Below are positions 34,639 to 57,195 of a stretch of 64,000 nt of DNA, piece after piece. Position 1 is the stretch's first letter. Each line of letters opens with the position of its first letter. Source of the DNA: Streptomyces sp. NBC_01260 (GTDB lineage Bacteria; Actinomycetota; Actinomycetes; Streptomycetales; Streptomycetaceae); contig NZ_CP108464.1 of the NCBI RefSeq assembly GCF_036226405.1, positions 7,564,001 to 7,628,000 of the forward strand. Reading direction: 5' to 3'. The notes beneath the pieces are model-generated. The model worked only from the letters and a program-made list of their open reading frames with translations, was not told the origin of the DNA and made no database searches. The translations under genes were made by a program, and so were the position numbers.

Positions 34639-34649
34639 GCGCAACCCTT

Positions 34650-34825
34650 CGTCAGCCGCCTGTGAAGGATGACCTGTCGGGTTCGGGCTGGCGAAGTTGC
34701 CCGGCCGCACAAGGCGGCTTCACCCCGAGGGACAACCGGAGGTCCGGTCGGCCCGTTGTGCTCGGGTCCTCCACTCCTGCCGATCCACTCCTGTCGACCA
34801 GGCATCCGGGCGGCGGCAGGACTCG
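34650..34825 (-). promoter_or_regulatory. ydaO/yuaA-type c-di-AMP riboswitch
   Basis: In the leader of the NlpC/P60 gene the minus strand reads CCGAACCCGACAGG...CACAGGCGGC (34655-34687), close to the conserved 3' core of the ydaO class. Upstream it has GAGGACCCGAG and CTCGGGGTGAAGCC, matching the GGGGGACCC / GGGGTGAA blocks, and GCCGCC near 34810 that can pair with GGCGGC to close P1. This class in actinobacteria controls wall-hydrolase genes, exactly the gene type found here. The exact 5' border is uncertain. The remaining gap to 35143 shows no gene. Confidence 0.75.
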
Positions 34826-40010: not shown

Positions 40011-41711
40011 AAGGGCTTGCAGATCATTAACACGGTGTCTTGATCTTGATGCTGGTGTCGCCGGTCAGTGCGAGGACCCTGGCTTGGAGGACTGTGAGGG
40101 ACGCGGGTGGGGTCTTCGCGGGCGGGATAGTGATGCCCTGGGCCTCGAGCAGTCTTCTGTTCTTGAGGAGAGTGCGGTGCATGGCCGTGCGGCTGCTGGC
40201 GAACAGTACGGCGAGTGGTTCCGCGGCCAGGGCGACCCGCAGGTGGAGCACGGTGGCCAGGACCTGTTCAGGGAAGGTAAGTCGGGGTGGGCGACCTCGC
40301 TGAGTATCCCCGTCGGGAGCCAACATTGTCGTGAGGTTGTCCAGTTGCTGGCGGGGCATCCCGGTCAGGGAAGGATCGGTCAGTAGGGCCTGGTCCCACT
40401 GTGTGTCAGCGGCCTGCGGGGCTCGTGCCGCCGGGATGGCAGGGCGTGTCTGGGGGTGCAGTGCATAGTTCCAGTCGGCGTGGAAGGCATGCCGGGTCAG
40501 CGGCAGGGCAGCCATCTCTGCGTCGCCGATCTTCACCCCGATGGGATAGCTGTTGGTGTCAAGCGCGGCTTTCACGCGCAGTCCGGTGCGGGTGGTGGTC
40601 GCTGCGATGCTGTTCACGATGACTTCGTGGCTGGTCAGCGGGCGGCCGCGCCAGTTCATGGTGATGTGCGAGAAGAGCCGGTGCTCGATCTTGTTCCACT
40701 TTGACGTGCCCGGCGGTAGGTGGCACACGGTGATGGTCAGTCCCGTTTCGGCGGCGAGCCGTGCGAGTTCGAGTTTCCAGGCCCGGGTGCGGTAACCGTT
40801 CGAGCCGCCCGCGTCGGCGGTGACGAGCAGTCGCGTCGCTTGCGGGTAGGCGGCCCGACCCTGGCCGCACCACCAGCGGCGGATCGATTCCACTGCGAAT
40901 GCGGCGGTGTCGTGATCGGTGCCCACGTTGACCCAGCCGGTGTTCGCCGCGAGGTCGTAGATCCCGTACGGGACGGCCTTGCCCAGCCGGGGGTCGGCGA
41001 AGTCATGGACGTTCACCGGCGCCGGATCAGCCGCAGGCCGCCACTGGAGACCGTTGTTCTTGAACTCGCCGACGAGTTCCTTCTTCTTGGTGTCCACGCT
41101 GATCACCGGCTGGCCAGCGTCCCGGTGATCACGGGCCTGCTCGTTGAGATAGCGGAACTGGGCATCTCGGTCGGGATGTTGGCTTCCCTCGATGGTCTTG
41201 GCGTTGGCCTGCAGACTGAAGCCTTCCTCTCGCAGCAGGTCCGCGACGGTGTCCGCACTGACTTTGTGTCCGGTTCGGGCGAGTTCCCGCGCCAGAGTGC
41301 GGGTCGACTTCACCGTCCACCGCAGCGGCGACATCGGATCGCCTCGCTCGTCTGGCTCGACAAGCGTCAGGAGAGCCGGCCGCAGCCCCGGATCGAGATC
41401 TGCGACCCTCTTGCGGCCTCCGCCCGGCCGCCGCACTCTCCCCAGAGGCTCCTCGCCGGCCTCCAACTCGGACACGCCCTTGCGGACCGTGGTCTCACTC
41501 ATCGAGGCCGCCCGCGCGACGGCCCGAACGCCACCGTGTCCCAGAGCACGGGCCTCTGCGGCCATCAGCAGCCGTCGTTGCCGCTCATCCAGATGAGGGA
41601 ACAACACCTCGAACTTCATGGTGAGTTGGGCACAGGCCTCTTCCAGGATGCGCATACCACATCAACGAGCCAAGGGACGGGAAGCAACACCTTGATGATC
41701 TGCAAGCCCTA
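40011..41711 (-). mobile_element. ISAzo13-family insertion sequence
   Basis: About 1.7 kb. The ends share AGGGCTTGCAGATCAT in inverted orientation (from 40012 on the left; ending at 41710 on the right), with imperfect continuation. One intact transposase gene fills it. The right end touches a MITE-like element directly at the bases CCCTAAGGG. Confidence 0.75.
40027..41655 (-). CDS. ISAzo13-family transposase
   Basis: A 542-residue, apparently intact transposase. An N-terminal helix-turn-helix (VRAVARAASMSETTVRKGVS) is followed by RPGGGRKRVADLDPGL and a DDE domain: first Asp in VISVDTKKKELVGEF, second in LLVTADAGGSNGYR, Glu in SKWNKIEHRLFSHITMNWRG. Length is normal for the family. The start ATG 41655 lies about 55 bases inside the right end. 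The long C-terminal part after EQVLATVLHLRVAL (an extra helix-turn-helix) is also common in this group. Confidence 0.9.
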   Translation of the reverse strand: MRILEEACAQLTMKFEVLFPHLDERQRRLLMAAEARALGHGGVRAVARAASMSETTVRKGVSELEAGEEPLGRVRRPGGGRKRVADLDPGLRPALLTLVEPDERGDPMSPLRWTVKSTRTLARELARTGHKVSADTVADLLREEGFSLQANAKTIEGSQHPDRDAQFRYLNEQARDHRDAGQPVISVDTKKKELVGEFKNNGLQWRPAADPAPVNVHDFADPRLGKAVPYGIYDLAANTGWVNVGTDHDTAAFAVESIRRWWCGQGRAAYPQATRLLVTADAGGSNGYRTRAWKLELARLAAETGLTITVCHLPPGTSKWNKIEHRLFSHITMNWRGRPLTSHEVIVNSIAATTTRTGLRVKAALDTNSYPIGVKIGDAEMAALPLTRHAFHADWNYALHPQTRPAIPAARAPQAADTQWDQALLTDPSLTGMPRQQLDNLTTMLAPDGDTQRGRPPRLTFPEQVLATVLHLRVALAAEPLAVLFASSRTAMHRTLLKNRRLLEAQGITIPPAKTPPASLTVLQARVLALTGDTSIKIKTPC

Positions 41712-41874
41712 AGGGCTGTCCCGCAATTCCCGGCGGGCGCGCGACGACAGCTACGGCACCTCGCCGCGTTGTCGGAACGTCCACATACATCCAGTATGCG
41801 GACGCCCCTCCGCCTTGCGATGCACCGCATCTGACGCCGCGCGCTGATCCGCCAGGAATTGCGGGACAGCCCTT
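41711..41874. repeat. MITE-like element, 164 bp
   Basis: Bounded by inverted repeats that read AAGGGCTGTCCCGCAATTCC at 41711-41730 and its complement at 41855-41874; the match even continues outwards for 5 more bases. No coding capacity. The inside contains CTACGGCACCTCGCCGCGTT and CCGCCTTGCGATGCACCGC, which recur in the diverged copy at 13238-13394. TA on both sides fits a TA target duplication. It may be mobilised in trans by an IS5/IS630-type transposase; which one is unknown. Confidence 0.75.
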
Positions 41875-41970
41875 AGGGCGTGCCGGTAAACAACTTGCTG
41901 TCGAACACCCTGCTTGAGCAGCGGTGTCAAGGGCTACAACACGCAAGTTAATGCTCTGCACGCCCTTAGG
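41871..41970. repeat. Second small inverted-repeat element, about 100 bp
   Basis: CCTTAGGGCGTGC (41871-41883) and GCACGCCCTTAGG (41958-41970) are perfect 13-bp inverted ends, with a further partial match inside (CAACTTGC / GCAAGTTA). It abuts the previous element and shares its CCTTA. Probably the paired ends of an otherwise deleted insertion sequence, or another MITE. Confidence 0.5.
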
Positions 41971-42054: not shown

Positions 42055-42182
42055 ATGAGCCGCATATGGGCGGGGATCGACAGCGGCAAGGGCCACCACC
42101 ACGGCCTCGCACTGGACCAGATGGCAAGACCCTGTTGTCGCGGCGGGTCGCCAACGACGAGCCGGAGCTGCTGCAGGTCCTG
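42055..42182 (+). pseudogene. IS110-type transposase, N-terminal fragment
   Basis: From ATG 42055 the reading SRIWAGIDSGKGHHHGLALD is the start of an IS110-family transposase, with the first Asp of its DEDD site. After about 25 codons one base is missing (near 42118), and the next frame continues GKTLLSRRVANDEPELLQVL. It then changes abruptly to ISL3-type sequence. A 5' fragment joined to another element. Confidence 0.65.
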
Positions 42183-42478
42183 TCCTTGGTGACGGTGAAC
42201 TGTCTGATGCGGACCCCGCTGCCACGGCGTCCGACCCCTACGGTGGCCGGAATTGACGAGTTCGCCCTGCTCAGAGGCCAGCGCTACGCGACGATCATCA
42301 TCGATGCCGATACCGGACAGAGCGTTGAGGTCCTGCCCGACCACAAGAGGGCCACGGTCACCACCTGGCTGCGTGAACACCCCGGCATTCGCCTCATGTG
42401 CCGGGACGGTTCCGGCGGTTTCGCCCGGGCCACCACCGACGCCAACCCGGGAATCGTCCAGGTCGGCGACCGGTGGCA

Positions 42479-44902
42479 GTGCGCCATGAGGCGCCTTTTC
42501 GTATCCCCGACTCAGTCGGGAAGAATTCGGAAGGAAATTCTTGGGTCTGATGGCTTACCTAATCCGGAAACGGTGAGGGGACCGCAGCATGCCAGGAAAG
42601 TGACGGCCGGGCTCAGGCATTGGAGACGGGGCGTCGTGGGACCCGCGTGATATGGCGAAAGCTAGATTGCCTGAATCCCAATCCCCAGAAGATTGAAGGT
42701 CGAATCCACTGGAAAATGCCTGAAACCGGTGCCGCGCCCTGCGACGGCTTTGTGCCATGGTCGACGCAACCTCCGGAGCGCGGAGCGATGCCCAGTGAGG
42801 GCATTCAAGGGGATGAATGGGGCGCCTACCTCACGCTATTACGTACGACAAGGGCGAACATGGGATCGCCTAAGGGGTGAGATCTTCCTATGGCGACGGA
42901 AGTCCCGTAGTAGTCGCCGGAGTCACGACCGGCCAAGGAGGACGGGAAAGCCGTCCGCATCGAGCGAAGGGGGCCAGGTGATCGGACACTCAAGGATCGG
43001 GAGGTATGCGTAATGCAGAGCGTCGAAACGGTGCTGGGTGTCCTCCGTGAACGCGGCAGGCGTGGCCTGCCGTGCAGCGAATTGTATCGACAGCTCTTCA
43101 ATCCGCAGTTGTATCTGCTGGCCTACGGCCGTCTGTACTCCAACAAGGGGTCAATGACACCGGGGGTCAACGGGGAGACCGTGGACGGCATGTCGCTGGG
43201 CAAAATCGAGCACGTCATCGACGCGCTGCGTCACGAACGCTACCGGTGGAGCCCAGCCAGAAGGGTCTATATCCCAAAGGGGCGGGGCAGCACGAAGCTG
43301 CGCCCGCTCGGCCTGCCGCCCTGGAGTGACAAACTCGTCGGCGAGGTGATCCGTCTGCTGCTTGAGGCGTATTACGAGCCGACGTTCTCCAACTCCTCGC
43401 ACGGTTTCCGTCCCCGCCGGGGCTGTCACACCGCACTACGTGATGCGGCCAATACCTGGACGGGCACAGTTTGGTTTGTCGAGGGCGGCATCGCCCAGTG
43501 CTTCGATCGCCTTGACCATTCGGTCATGCTCCGAATCCTGGGTGAAAGAATCCAAGACAACCGGTTCCTGCGGCTGATGGGCAACCTGCTCAAGGCCGGA
43601 TACATGGAGGACTGGGTCTGGAACGCTACGCACAGCGGGAGTCCGCAAGGCGGTGCAGTTTCACCGATCCTGTCAAATATCTATCTGCACAAGATGGATG
43701 AGTACGTCGAGAATATTCTGATCCCGGAATACACCCGGGGAAGAGTCAGGCAGCCGAACCGTGCCTTTCATCGGGTGTGGGCGGCCATAAGACGCGCAGG
43801 CAAGCGCGATGACCGCACCGAGGTGCGGGAGCTGCGCAAGCAACTTCGCAGTGTGCCCAGCATGGATACTCATGATCCTGGCTACCGGCGACTGCGATAT
43901 ACGCGTTACGCCGACGACACCCTCCTCGGGTTCGCCGGACCGAAGGCAGAAGCCGAGGAAATCAAAGAGCGGCTGGCACAATTCATCCGTGACGAACTCA
44001 GGTTGGAACTGTCGCCGGAGAAGACCCTCATCACGCACGCCCGCACCCAGGCGGCGAGGTTCCTCGGCTACGAAATCACCGTGCACCACAACGACCGCAA
44101 GATCACCGGCGGACGTCGTTCCGTCAATGGGGTCATCAGATTGCGCGTCCCTCGTTCGGTGGTATCTGCCAAGCAAGCCCAGTACATGAAGCGCGGCAAA
44201 CCCGCGCGTCGGCCGGAACTGCTGAACCAGGACGATCACGTCATCCTCAGCACCTACGGGTCGGAGTACCGCGGCATCGTCCAGTACTACCTGCTGGCCG
44301 GCGACGTCTTTTCGACTCGCCCGGCTGCAACGGGTCATGGAGACCTCGATGCTGATGACGCTCGCCAACAAGCACCGCTCGCCGGTGTCGAAGATGGCCC
44401 GCAAGTACGCGGCCACCATCGAGACCCCGCACGGACTGCGCAAGTGCTTCGAAGCCCGGGTCGAACGCACCGGCAGGAAGCCACTGGTCGGACGGTTCGG
44501 AGGGATCCCGCTGCGACGGGACAAGAAGACGGTGATCAATGACCGTCGGCTGGCCCCGGTCAACACCAAACGCAAGGAGCTGGTCACCCGGCTCCTCGCC
44601 GGACGGTGCGAGTCCTGCGGGCAGATCAACGAGGTGGAAGTCCACCACGTCGCCAAGCTCGCAGACCTCGGACGATCAGGAACCCGGCCACCGTGGGCAG
44701 ATCTCATGGCCGCACGACATCGCAAAGCCCTTGTGGTCTGCGGAAGTCGTCACGCGGACATCCACGGCAAGAAGCCCGCCCCAGCACTCACGGAGTAGTC
44801 ACTGGAAAGCGACGTGCGGTGAAAGTCGCATGCGTCGTTTGGGCTGGGGGCCGTGGGAAAAGGACCTGCTCAGCAGGCACCTCGCCGACGGCCCACCAGT
44901 AC
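42479..44902 (+). mobile_element. Group II intron, 2,424 bp, sense orientation
   Basis: The 5' end is GTGCGCC (consensus GUGYG) and the 3' end is AGTAC (consensus AY). Domain V is visible at 44808-44841 as AGCGACGTGCGG, TGAAAG loop, TCGCATGCGTCGTTT, keeping the catalytic AGC triad, and a domain VI stem (GGGCCGT / ACGGCCC) follows. TGCCAT at 42753-42758 could be EBS1, able to pair with the last exon bases GTGGCA. An intron-encoded reverse transcriptase lies in domain IV. The splice ends are defined by restoration of the ISL3 reading frame. Confidence 0.87.
43013..44798 (+). pseudogene. ltrA: Intron-encoded reverse transcriptase/maturase with HNH domain, one frameshift
   Basis: From ATG 43013, domains appear in order: RT0-RT3 (GVNGETVDGMSLGK, STKLRPLGLPPWSDK), RT4 (FVEGGIAQCFDRLDH), RT5 with YADD (RYTRYADDTLLGFAG, bases 43907-43918), RT7, then domain X beginning HVILSTYGSEYRGIVQYYLL. 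At TTTT (44309-44312) the frame breaks. With one T fewer it would continue DVFRLARLQRVMETSMLMTL through the rest of domain X and an HNH endonuclease (CESCGQINEVEVHHVAKLAD) to the stop at 44798, about 594 residues in all. So RT motifs are intact but maturase X and the endonuclease are cut off. Confidence 0.85.
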
Positions 44903-45168
44903 CCTCTGGCACGGCCTGGCACGAAGCAGCACTGAAGGAGGTTGGCGGGCACGCCTCATGCTGGAGCAAGTACGGCCCACCACTGCCGCAGGGCAAGCGC
45001 GCGGATACCACAATGGAGCGCTGGCGGCAGATCCACGACCTCCTTGATCAGGGCGTCGGTCTGCTCGCCTGCGCCCGACGCCTGGACGTCTCGCTGAACA
45101 CCGTCAACCGCTACGCACGCGCCGCCGAACCGGACCGCATGGTCCGCGCCCCCGTCTACCGGTCCAGT

Positions 45169-55481: not shown

Positions 55482-57195
55482 ACTCCATCGCGCCGTGTAC
55501 GCGGACCTGTTCGGTCCCACCACCGGCGACCGGATCCGTCTCGCCGACACCGATCTGCTCGTGGAGATCGAGGAGGACCGCTGCGGCGGCCCCGGACTCG
55601 CGGGCGACGAGGCGGTGTTCGGCGGCGGCAAGGTGATCCGCGAGTCCATGGGCCAGGCGCGCACCACCCGCGCCGAAGGCGCCCCCGACACGGTCGTCAC
55701 CGGCGCCGTCATCATCGACCACTGGGGCATCGTCAAGGCGGACATCGGCATCCGCGACGGCCGGATCACCGGGATCGGCAAGGCAGGCAACCCGGACACC
55801 ATGGACGGCGTCCATCCGGAGCTGGTCATCGGTCCGGAGACCGAAATCGTCGCGGGCAACGGGAAGTTCATCACCGCGGGCGCCATCGACGCGCATGTGC
55901 ACTTCATCTCGCCGACCCTCATGGACCAGGCACTCTCGTCCGGCATCACCACGCTCGTCGGCGGCGGTACCGGTCCGGCTGAGGGCACCAAGGCCACCAC
56001 CATCACCCCGGGCCCCTGGCACCTCGCCCGGATGTTCGCGGCACTGGAGGCGTACCCCGTCAACATCGGTCTGCTCGGCAAGGGCAACACGATGTCCCGC
56101 GAGGCCATGCACTCCCAGCTGCGGGCAGGGGCGCTCGGGTTCAAGATCCACGAGGACTGGGGGGCGACACCCGCCGTCATCGACGCCTGCCTCGGCGTCT
56201 GCGAGGAGACCGGTGCCCAGCTGGCCATCCACACGGACACGCTCAACGAGGCCGGGTTCGTCGCCGACACCCTGGCCGCCATCGCCGGGCGCTCCATCCA
56301 CGCGTACCACACCGAAGGGGCGGGAGGCGGGCACGCGCCCGACATCATCAGTGTCGTCTCGGAGCCGTACGTCCTGCCCAGCTCCACCAACCCCACCCGG
56401 CCGCACACCGTCAACACCATCGAGGAACACCTCGACATGCTGATGGTCTGTCATCACCTCAACCCCGCCGTGCCGGAGGACCTGGCCTTCGCCGAATCAC
56501 GGATCCGGCCCTCCACCATCGCGGCGGAGGACATCCTCCACGACCTCGGCGCCATCTCGATCATCTCGTCCGACTCCCAGGCGATGGGCCGCATCGGGGA
56601 GGTCGTCCTGCGCACCTGGCAGACCGCGCACGTGATGAAGAGGCGTCGCGGCGCGCTGCCGGGCGACGGGCGTGCGGACAACCGCCGAGTCCGTCGCTAT
56701 GTCGCCAAATACACCATCAACCCCGCGGTGGCCCAGGGCCTCGACCAGGAGATCGGCTCGGTCGAGATCGGCAAGCTCGCCGATCTGGTGCTGTGGGAAC
56801 CGGCGTTCTTCGGCGTGAAACCGCAGACCGTCATCAAGGGCGGCCAGATCGCGTACGCGCAGATGGGCGACGCCAACGCCTCCATACCCACCCCGCAGCC
56901 CGTCCTGCCCCGGCCCATGTTCGGCGCCGTCGGCCGGGCCCCGGCCGCCAACTCGTTCAACTTCGTGGCAGCGGCGGCGATCGAGGACGGGCTGCCGGAG
57001 CGGCTCGCACTCGGGAAGCGGTTCGTCCCGATCACCAGCACCCGGGGGGTCGGCAAGGCCGACATGCGGGAGAACGACGCGCTGCCACGGGTCGACGTCG
57101 ACCCCGACAGCTTCGCCGTGACCATCGACGGCGAACCGGTCGAACCGGCACCCGCTGCCGAACTCCCCATGGCCCAGCGCTACTTCCTCTTCTGA
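55474..57195 (+). CDS. ureC: Urease alpha (catalytic) subunit
   Basis: A 573-residue UreC. The nickel ligands and active site can be seen: His141 and His143 in [11 protein letters not shown], the Lys to be carbamylated at 224 in [13 protein letters not shown], His in [12 protein letters not shown] and in [15 protein letters not shown], and the mobile-flap histidines in [20 protein letters not shown]. Length and ends are normal. The ATG at 55474 has GGAGG 8 bases upstream and lies inside the last codons of ureB. Confidence 0.97.

Follow-up and report, generated by a model that had tools for sequence, protein, structure and literature searches.

Several group II introns are known from the genes of other mobile elements. 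RmInt1 lies in the transposase gene of ISRm2011-2 and has been proposed to limit the spread of that element (PMC4238363), and copies of E.c.I4 in E. coli occupy defined sites within IS3-like transposases (PMC3522654). For Ll.LtrB and Ef.PcfG, the homing site is a single conserved position in a relaxase gene, recognised through IBS1, IBS2 and delta' (PMC5072309). In Thermosynechococcus elongatus, EBS families correspond to clades with different targets, which enter both introns and insertion elements (PMC2882425), and nested bacterial introns are already known (PMC4424553).

The intron described here is of a kind already known, each of its elements having a published precedent in RmInt1, E.c.I4, Ll.LtrB or the T. 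elongatus introns. Like RmInt1, it is a group II intron inside the transposase gene of an insertion sequence (PMC4238363), whereas RmInt1 is a class D, IIB-like intron whose protein lacks an endonuclease domain (PMC8914252) and the present lineage has an HNH domain. E.c.I4 differs in its hosts and in the IS family that it enters, and is a single intron in contrast to the clade with many targets found here. The likeness to Ll.LtrB and Ef.PcfG is that the target is one conserved motif of a mobile gene and that LtrA is the best of eight solved structures matched by the protein of a related intron, L003 (371.5 bits; the next reached 129.1). Their target, however, is the relaxase gene of conjugative elements, whereas here it is ISL3 and other actinomycete transposases. 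The T. elongatus introns come from one genome and are partly without protein genes, while the present clade spans many genomes and has a long protein frame in 94 of its introns. Searches of open-licence PMC papers gave no description of the ISL3 site, of the matching to Trp or Phe, or of a clade as broad as the one reported below.

The window, by which we mean the whole stretch of 64,000 nucleotides of Streptomyces sp. NBC_01260 that was analysed, contains the following features, with positions counted from its first base.

42055..42191, + strand: N-terminal IS110 transposase remnant in two frames (tblastn of the IS110 protein L016)
42165..42478, + strand: ISL3 5' exon fragment, residues 139-244 of the paralogue (PF01610, NF033550, tblastn 57%)
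42467..42478, + strand: target bases -12 to -1, with IBS2 at 42467-42471 and IBS1 at 42473-42478 (covariation, 107 introns)
42479..44902, + strand: group II intron (3' match to RF00029, empty site in L163, sole full copy in the genome)
42698..42702, + strand: EBS2 (GGTCG) in a hairpin loop (covariation, consensus fold)
42752..42758, + strand: probable delta base (42752, G) and EBS1 (42753-42758, TGCCAT) in a hairpin loop (covariation, consensus fold)
43013..44308, + strand: intron protein, first part, reverse transcriptase (PF00078, 86.3 bits; 91% identity to L003)
44309..44312, + strand: T run with a one-base frame shift of the intron protein (sequence, ORFs, alignment)
44310..44798, + strand: intron protein, second part, HNH endonuclease domain in the shifted frame (PF21368; 90% identity to L003)
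44805..44902, + strand: domains V and VI (RF00029, 50.2 bits; fold of 44799-44902)
44903..45168, + strand: ISL3 3' exon fragment, C-terminal part missing and frame soon lost (tblastn, L163 alignment)

The intron is 2424 bases long, beginning with GTGCGCC and ending with AGTAC. Group II introns have the terminal consensus GUGYG...AY, which its termini (GTGCG...AC) fit, and the same start and end are common to most relatives at the ISL3 site. The Rfam model RF00029 (Intron_gpII), with a gathering score of 40, matches the 3' part of the intron on the forward strand and stops exactly at the proposed 3' end, 44902. Between 41900 and 45400, at E up to 1, Rfam gave Intron_gpII only, the other group II models being without a match. 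The stretch containing domains V and VI (44799-44902) folds with a z of -4.09, and none of 200 shuffles was as low. L163, an intron-free ISL3 relative in another genome, gave two blastn pieces, window 42164-42478 and 44903-44989, whose counterparts in L163 (2440-2123, then 2122-2038) are adjacent with no base in between; the second piece is short because L163 is without a stretch further downstream. Across the joint L163 reads QVGDRWHLWHGLA, and two less close intron-free ISL3 genes of the window genome read QVADRWHLWHNL (L140, C1:7366188-7367627, uninterrupted) and QVADRFHLRQGL (L141) across the site. The exon bases with which EBS1 and EBS2 pair lie directly 5' of border 42478.

The borders given in the preliminary description (GTGCG and AC, joined at 42478/44903) are therefore exact, with the RF00029 end, the empty site of L163, the shared termini and the EBS pairing in agreement. 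It was also right that a group II intron lies inside an ISL3 gene in sense orientation, given the RF00029 match to domains V/VI and an ISL3 fragment that lies on the same strand. Neither outcome that it had named as refuting came about: Rfam found domain V/VI and the 5' consensus structure has compensatory changes, and the intron-free ISL3 relatives L140, L141 and L163 carry the proposed joint. A group I intron or an IStron is ruled out, since the 3' end is a group II domain V/VI and the protein combines a reverse transcriptase with HNH. An assembly artefact is unlikely, because 17 other loci with both ends, two of which (L021 and L064) are identical and probably one record, hold a full-length intron at the same site.

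The protein of the window intron has decayed. The HNH domain is recognised in ORF 44337-44798 (PF21368, 43.6 bits), and the YADD motif of the reverse transcriptase is retained. At the motif A position aligned to Asp 159 of L003, a residue that we take from its motif to be a catalytic Asp, the window protein has Gly; 93 of the 94 intron proteins have Asp there, and Gly occurs in the window protein alone. With this Gly and the frame shift at 44309-44312, the reverse transcriptase is not intact. The window genome holds this sole full copy of the intron and otherwise one 79-base match. In the same genome, L140 offers an empty, unoccupied site that matches the intron (5/5 EBS2 pairs and 5/6 EBS1 pairs), as expected if the window copy is immobile. 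We conclude that the window copy is very probably a fossil.

The ISL3 gene around it is a fragment and not a full-length transposase. Its 5' exon matches PF01610 with 32 bits (cut-off 23) and NF033550 with 89.4 bits, below the cut-off of 180, over model positions 110-208 of 370. By tblastn, the copy spans residues 139-330 of the 518-aa uninterrupted paralogue L140, of which the 3' exon accounts for residues 246-330 at 62% in a frame that differs from the joint frame. In the joint frame the 3' exon is open for 48 codons; the ISL3 homology lies in another frame from about 44917, and blastn finds one extra base in the window, relative to L163, shortly past the joint. The earlier claim that splicing restores the ISL3 reading stands for the few codons of DRW-HLWHGLA and fails for a working transposase, which splicing cannot restore here because the copy lacks both ends and has lost its frame. 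The IS110-ISL3 fusion claimed upstream is real as DNA. Two tblastn segments, of 21 aa at 71% and 24 aa at 67% identity to the same IS110 protein (L016), lie in two frames, and the second-frame piece continues into the ISL3 fragment. The 42-aa IS110 piece had no match in Pfam. For the decayed integrative element that the preliminary description proposed, one integrase match was found, with a score under its cut-off.

Other elements were seen elsewhere in the window. An ISAzo13 element at 40012-41710, bounded by a 19-nt inverted repeat (40012-40030 / 41692-41710), carries a transposase on the reverse strand (40027-41655; NF033519, 603 bits, residues 19-401 of 542), the C-terminal 140 residues of which lie outside the NF033519 model; ISAzo13 is also targeted by a related intron (L078). 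An inverted repeat of 52 nt at 41685-41736 / 41849-41900, 83% complementary and 112 nt apart, is MITE-like. The reverse strand also holds a c-di-AMP riboswitch (34642-34814, 46.7 bits against 38) and a match to Rfam 5_ureB_sRNA (55637-55925, 63.5 bits against 40), which may reflect the conservation of a coding region rather than a small RNA.

Some match to the intron was present in 110 of 392 Streptomyces-genus genomes, and a plasmid search gave 73 matching records, 29 of which contain 80% or more of its length at a single place. When named genomes were scanned with ten aligned intact proteins, 249 relatives were found; the best 80 of these were used, so the list of target families below is a sample. 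The 5' and 3' ends of the introns in the fetched loci were located by nucleotide profiles. The protein tree represents 94 of 121 5' junctions, with 27 omitted as short frames or duplicates, and its row for the window includes the frame-shifted tail and therefore has an overlong branch.

The target-recognition sequences were read directly from covariation. In one scan, 20 upstream exon bases were compared with every well-filled column of the first 540 intron bases in 107 distinct 5' regions. The nine best pairs belong to antiparallel runs, of which one joins exon -1 to -5 to 42753-42757 and the other joins exon -8 to -11 to 42698-42701, and exon -6 and -12 prolong these runs at ranks 11 and 12. 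The runs 42753-42758 and 42698-42702 are EBS1 and EBS2, obtained without any site being assumed. Positions -1 to -5 are fully paired in 62/107 introns (mean 4.9 and maximum 12 in 1000 shuffles) and positions -8 to -11 in 78/107 (shuffled mean 17.0, maximum 27). Pairing is incomplete for EBS1 (-1 to -5) in 45/107 introns and for EBS2 (-8 to -11) in 29/107; many of these are IS5-type introns, in which the alignment of EBS1 may be off. In the window intron, EBS2 is paired at 5/5 positions, and EBS1 at 5/6 with one wobble.

In the group IIA arrangement, the delta base adjoins EBS1 and pairs with the +1 base. Here, the +1 base covaries best with column 42752, just 5' of EBS1 (0.74 observed against 0.42 expected, n=86, with the 3' ends of non-ISL3 branches assigned by rule), and in the ISL3 branch (n=17) this pair is Watson-Crick in 11 introns, a wobble in 2 and a mismatch in 4. 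Base 42752 is thus probably the delta base, with weaker support than for EBS1 and EBS2. A consensus fold of 24 relatives places the EBS1 and EBS2 runs both in hairpin loops, and at least one sequence is changed on both sides in 72 of its 147 pairs. When the 5' part was folded as a single sequence, it did no better than shuffles (z -0.70; 22/100 shuffles as good).

Twenty distinct introns lie at DR(W/F)-CA|, of which 12 have Trp hosts and 8 Phe hosts. In the Phe hosts (TTCCA or TTTCA) EBS1 is TGGAA in 8/8 introns, and in the Trp hosts it is TGCCA in ten and CGCCA in one; the twelfth Trp host, L055, matches over about its first 270 bases and is no longer intron at the EBS1 column. EBS1 thus matches the host codon in 19/19 ISL3-branch introns that retain it. 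The Trp/Phe state has changed at least five times on the protein tree. In a sign test of Trp/Phe against EBS1, 3/3 independent starred pairs agree (p 0.25), which is too few for significance. This set was chosen by DR[WF] before the junction, so that for the set alone a shared codon is circular. Independently of that choice, of the nine introns that share 85% or more DNA identity and whose 5' junction can be read, eight lie at the ISL3 codon (window, L003, L004, L019, L020, L021, L048 and L055). The exception, L044, has 85% identity over its first 784 bases and yet lies off the ISL3 site; its flank reads DAIRYIVDNGAKWQALP in antisense, which we take to be IS5-like. On the protein tree, the ISL3 group consists of 16/16 rows with the ISL3 label and contains no other label (support 84, not starred), and in 13 of these 16 proteins the frame stays open for 570 residues or more. 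Twelve more loci have an ISL3-type 3' end and no matching 5' end, and they continue with Leu (11) or Val (1) after a His codon whose first two bases were supplied by us. The arrangement, whose rarity the preliminary description had suggested, is shared by a branch of introns at the same ISL3 site, and introns in transposase genes are documented (PMC4238363, PMC3522654, PMC2882425).

We also compared the introns with their hosts. At the 18 loci with both ends, leaving aside the identical pair L021/L064, intron identity is 85.5-99.6% in the main group, 84-90% among L067-L070 and 76-80% from one group to the other, and the ISL3 5' exons of the compared loci mostly have 60-70% DNA identity. L019 and L048, both in one genome (G096), have introns that are 99.6% identical and 5' exons that are 66.6% identical, and for L004 and L021 the values are 94.6% and 66.0%; some pairs have closer flanks (L020/L003 79%, L063/L048 90.5%). 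The near-identical introns in unlike ISL3 hosts indicate that the introns moved between hosts. At eight loci (L004, L019, L020, L060, L061, L063, L066, L070) both exons are open in the joint frame, for at least 230 and at least 270 codons counted up to the next stop and not from a start, so that splicing could yield a full-length transposase. The exons are not both open in L003, L048, L069, L071 and the window, are open and short on one side in L062 and L068, and have part of a flank missing in L021/L064, L067, L055, L065 and L126. L003 has two bases more than L004 at or just past the 3' border, which shift its 3' exon into another frame, although its intron protein is full length. L004, from the soil Streptomyces NBC_01591, combines open exons with an intron protein of full length. 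Conservation alone accounts only partly for the choice of site: the insertion site ranks 142 of 1389 segments compared in 26 ISL3 genes (0.811 against a median of 0.701; 5/31 loci were dropped for want of a long frame with the motif), and is conserved without being the most conserved.

The targets of the wider clade are strongly clustered on the 94-protein tree, with 19 changes needed for 15 labels against a shuffled mean of 64.8. The labels are our reading of the motifs before each junction, with representatives checked by profile searches. The IS5b, IS481-like, IS1380-like, IS1182-like, IS3-like, LtrA-gene, VWx, VDLG and HATPase labels each occupy one side of a starred branch. The ISL3 label needs one change, IS5a two, domain V six and the unassigned targets 13. 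Of ten partial proteins searched, NCBIfam named nine, namely ISL3, IS5 (twice), IS1380, IS1182, ISAzo13, IS6, IS3 and IS701, with ISL3, ISAzo13 and IS701 above the curated cut-off. Pfam matched five of the ten, with HATPase_c_2 in L093, DDE domains in L013 and L011, a DDE-associated domain in L036 and rve, below its cut-off, in L116. Profile checks of L096, L089, L113, L112 and L136 gave no match; since the checked representatives were without one, the IS481-like, the LtrA-gene and one HATPase label come mainly from motif reading. The IS6 and ISAzo13 targets are single rows each, the latter being L078. Several insertion codons may be close to DDE catalytic residues.

Of 11 loci whose flanks were joined and folded, nine (L015, L018, L086, L121, L124, L125, L131, L133 and L139) gave a hairpin of domain V form that carries a two-base bulge, and L014 and L123 showed no such fold. 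On the basis of these predicted folds, the introns at the nine loci appear to be lodged inside other group II introns; searches of open-licence PMC papers gave no report of bacterial group II introns within domain V of other introns. Two branches lie in RsbW-like ATPase genes, which are not mobile DNA. In one, L093 matches HATPase_c_2 with 33.4 bits (cut-off 27.4) and L027, L038, L075, L094, L102 and L108 were assigned by motif; the other consists of L039, assigned by motif reading, and L136, which has no Pfam match.

From these observations, we are highly confident that the window holds the decayed copy of a mobile group II intron whose protein is LtrA-like and whose target recognition is LtrB-like, from a branch fixed on one ISL3 site. 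The borders, the empty site, the target pairing, the shared site, the unlike hosts and the decay are observed. Members of the branch come mostly from Streptomyces and other actinomycetes, and its site is the His codon of the ISL3 motif DR(W/F)-H-L. The RNA of a live member would base-pair with positions -12 to -8 and -6 to -1, enter the sense strand of an ISL3 gene with an empty site by reverse splicing, and serve as template for the intron protein, a retrohoming pathway whose chemistry we infer; splicing from the mRNA in vivo would not disturb the transposase frame. The window shows such an insertion, with an ISL3 copy that has lost both ends and its frame and an intron protein that has lost its reverse transcriptase Asp and its frame, the decay presumably having followed the insertion.

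It could be argued that the shared codon reflects common descent, with a single arrival in ISL3 genes followed by co-inheritance, and the 16 ISL3-inserted introns do form one group on the protein tree. We regard this as very improbable, because the identities of introns and hosts are uncoupled, as in the pairs L019/L048 and L004/L021, and because EBS1 follows the host codon through its repeated changes. The intron might act as a brake on ISL3 transposition and be retained for it instead of being a plain parasite, as has been proposed for RmInt1 in ISRm2011-2 (PMC4238363); the eight ISL3 loci at which both exons are open in the joint frame would suit such a role. The data do not separate a brake from plain parasitism, and the patchy distribution over the sampled Streptomyces genomes, with many fragments, fits turnover without retention, which makes retention as a brake unlikely.

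The window intron itself may still be active, its RNA splicing or the protein of another intron mobilising it in trans, as domain V/VI, EBS1 and EBS2 are intact and such trans-mobilisation is described for T. elongatus (PMC2882425). Its own protein, however, is frame-shifted and without the Asp, no close helper is seen in a genome with one full copy and the 79-base match, and the matching site in L140 has stayed unoccupied. Continued activity is thus quite unlikely.

We consider it likely that the window copy is the fossil of one member of a broad LtrA-like clade of hyperparasites of repeated genes, in which each branch keeps to a single conserved sequence, coding or from a ribozyme core, and retargets by matched EBS changes, the ISL3 branch toggling between Trp and Phe alleles of one codon. 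On this reading the targets would be ISL3, two IS5 types, IS481-like, IS1380, IS1182 and IS3 elements, the protein gene of another intron and RsbW-like ATPases, with domain V entered more than once and IS6 and ISAzo13 as single rows. The window locus is ordinary by itself, and the clade behind it merits description. With readable borders, diverse natural targets and EBS1 and EBS2 taken directly from covariation, the clade offers material for studying the way in which a retroelement shifts from one target to another, and the ISL3 branch allows the intron to be traced together with its host codon through repeated matched changes. The clade suggests natural rules for retargeting LtrA-like introns of high-GC actinomycetes.
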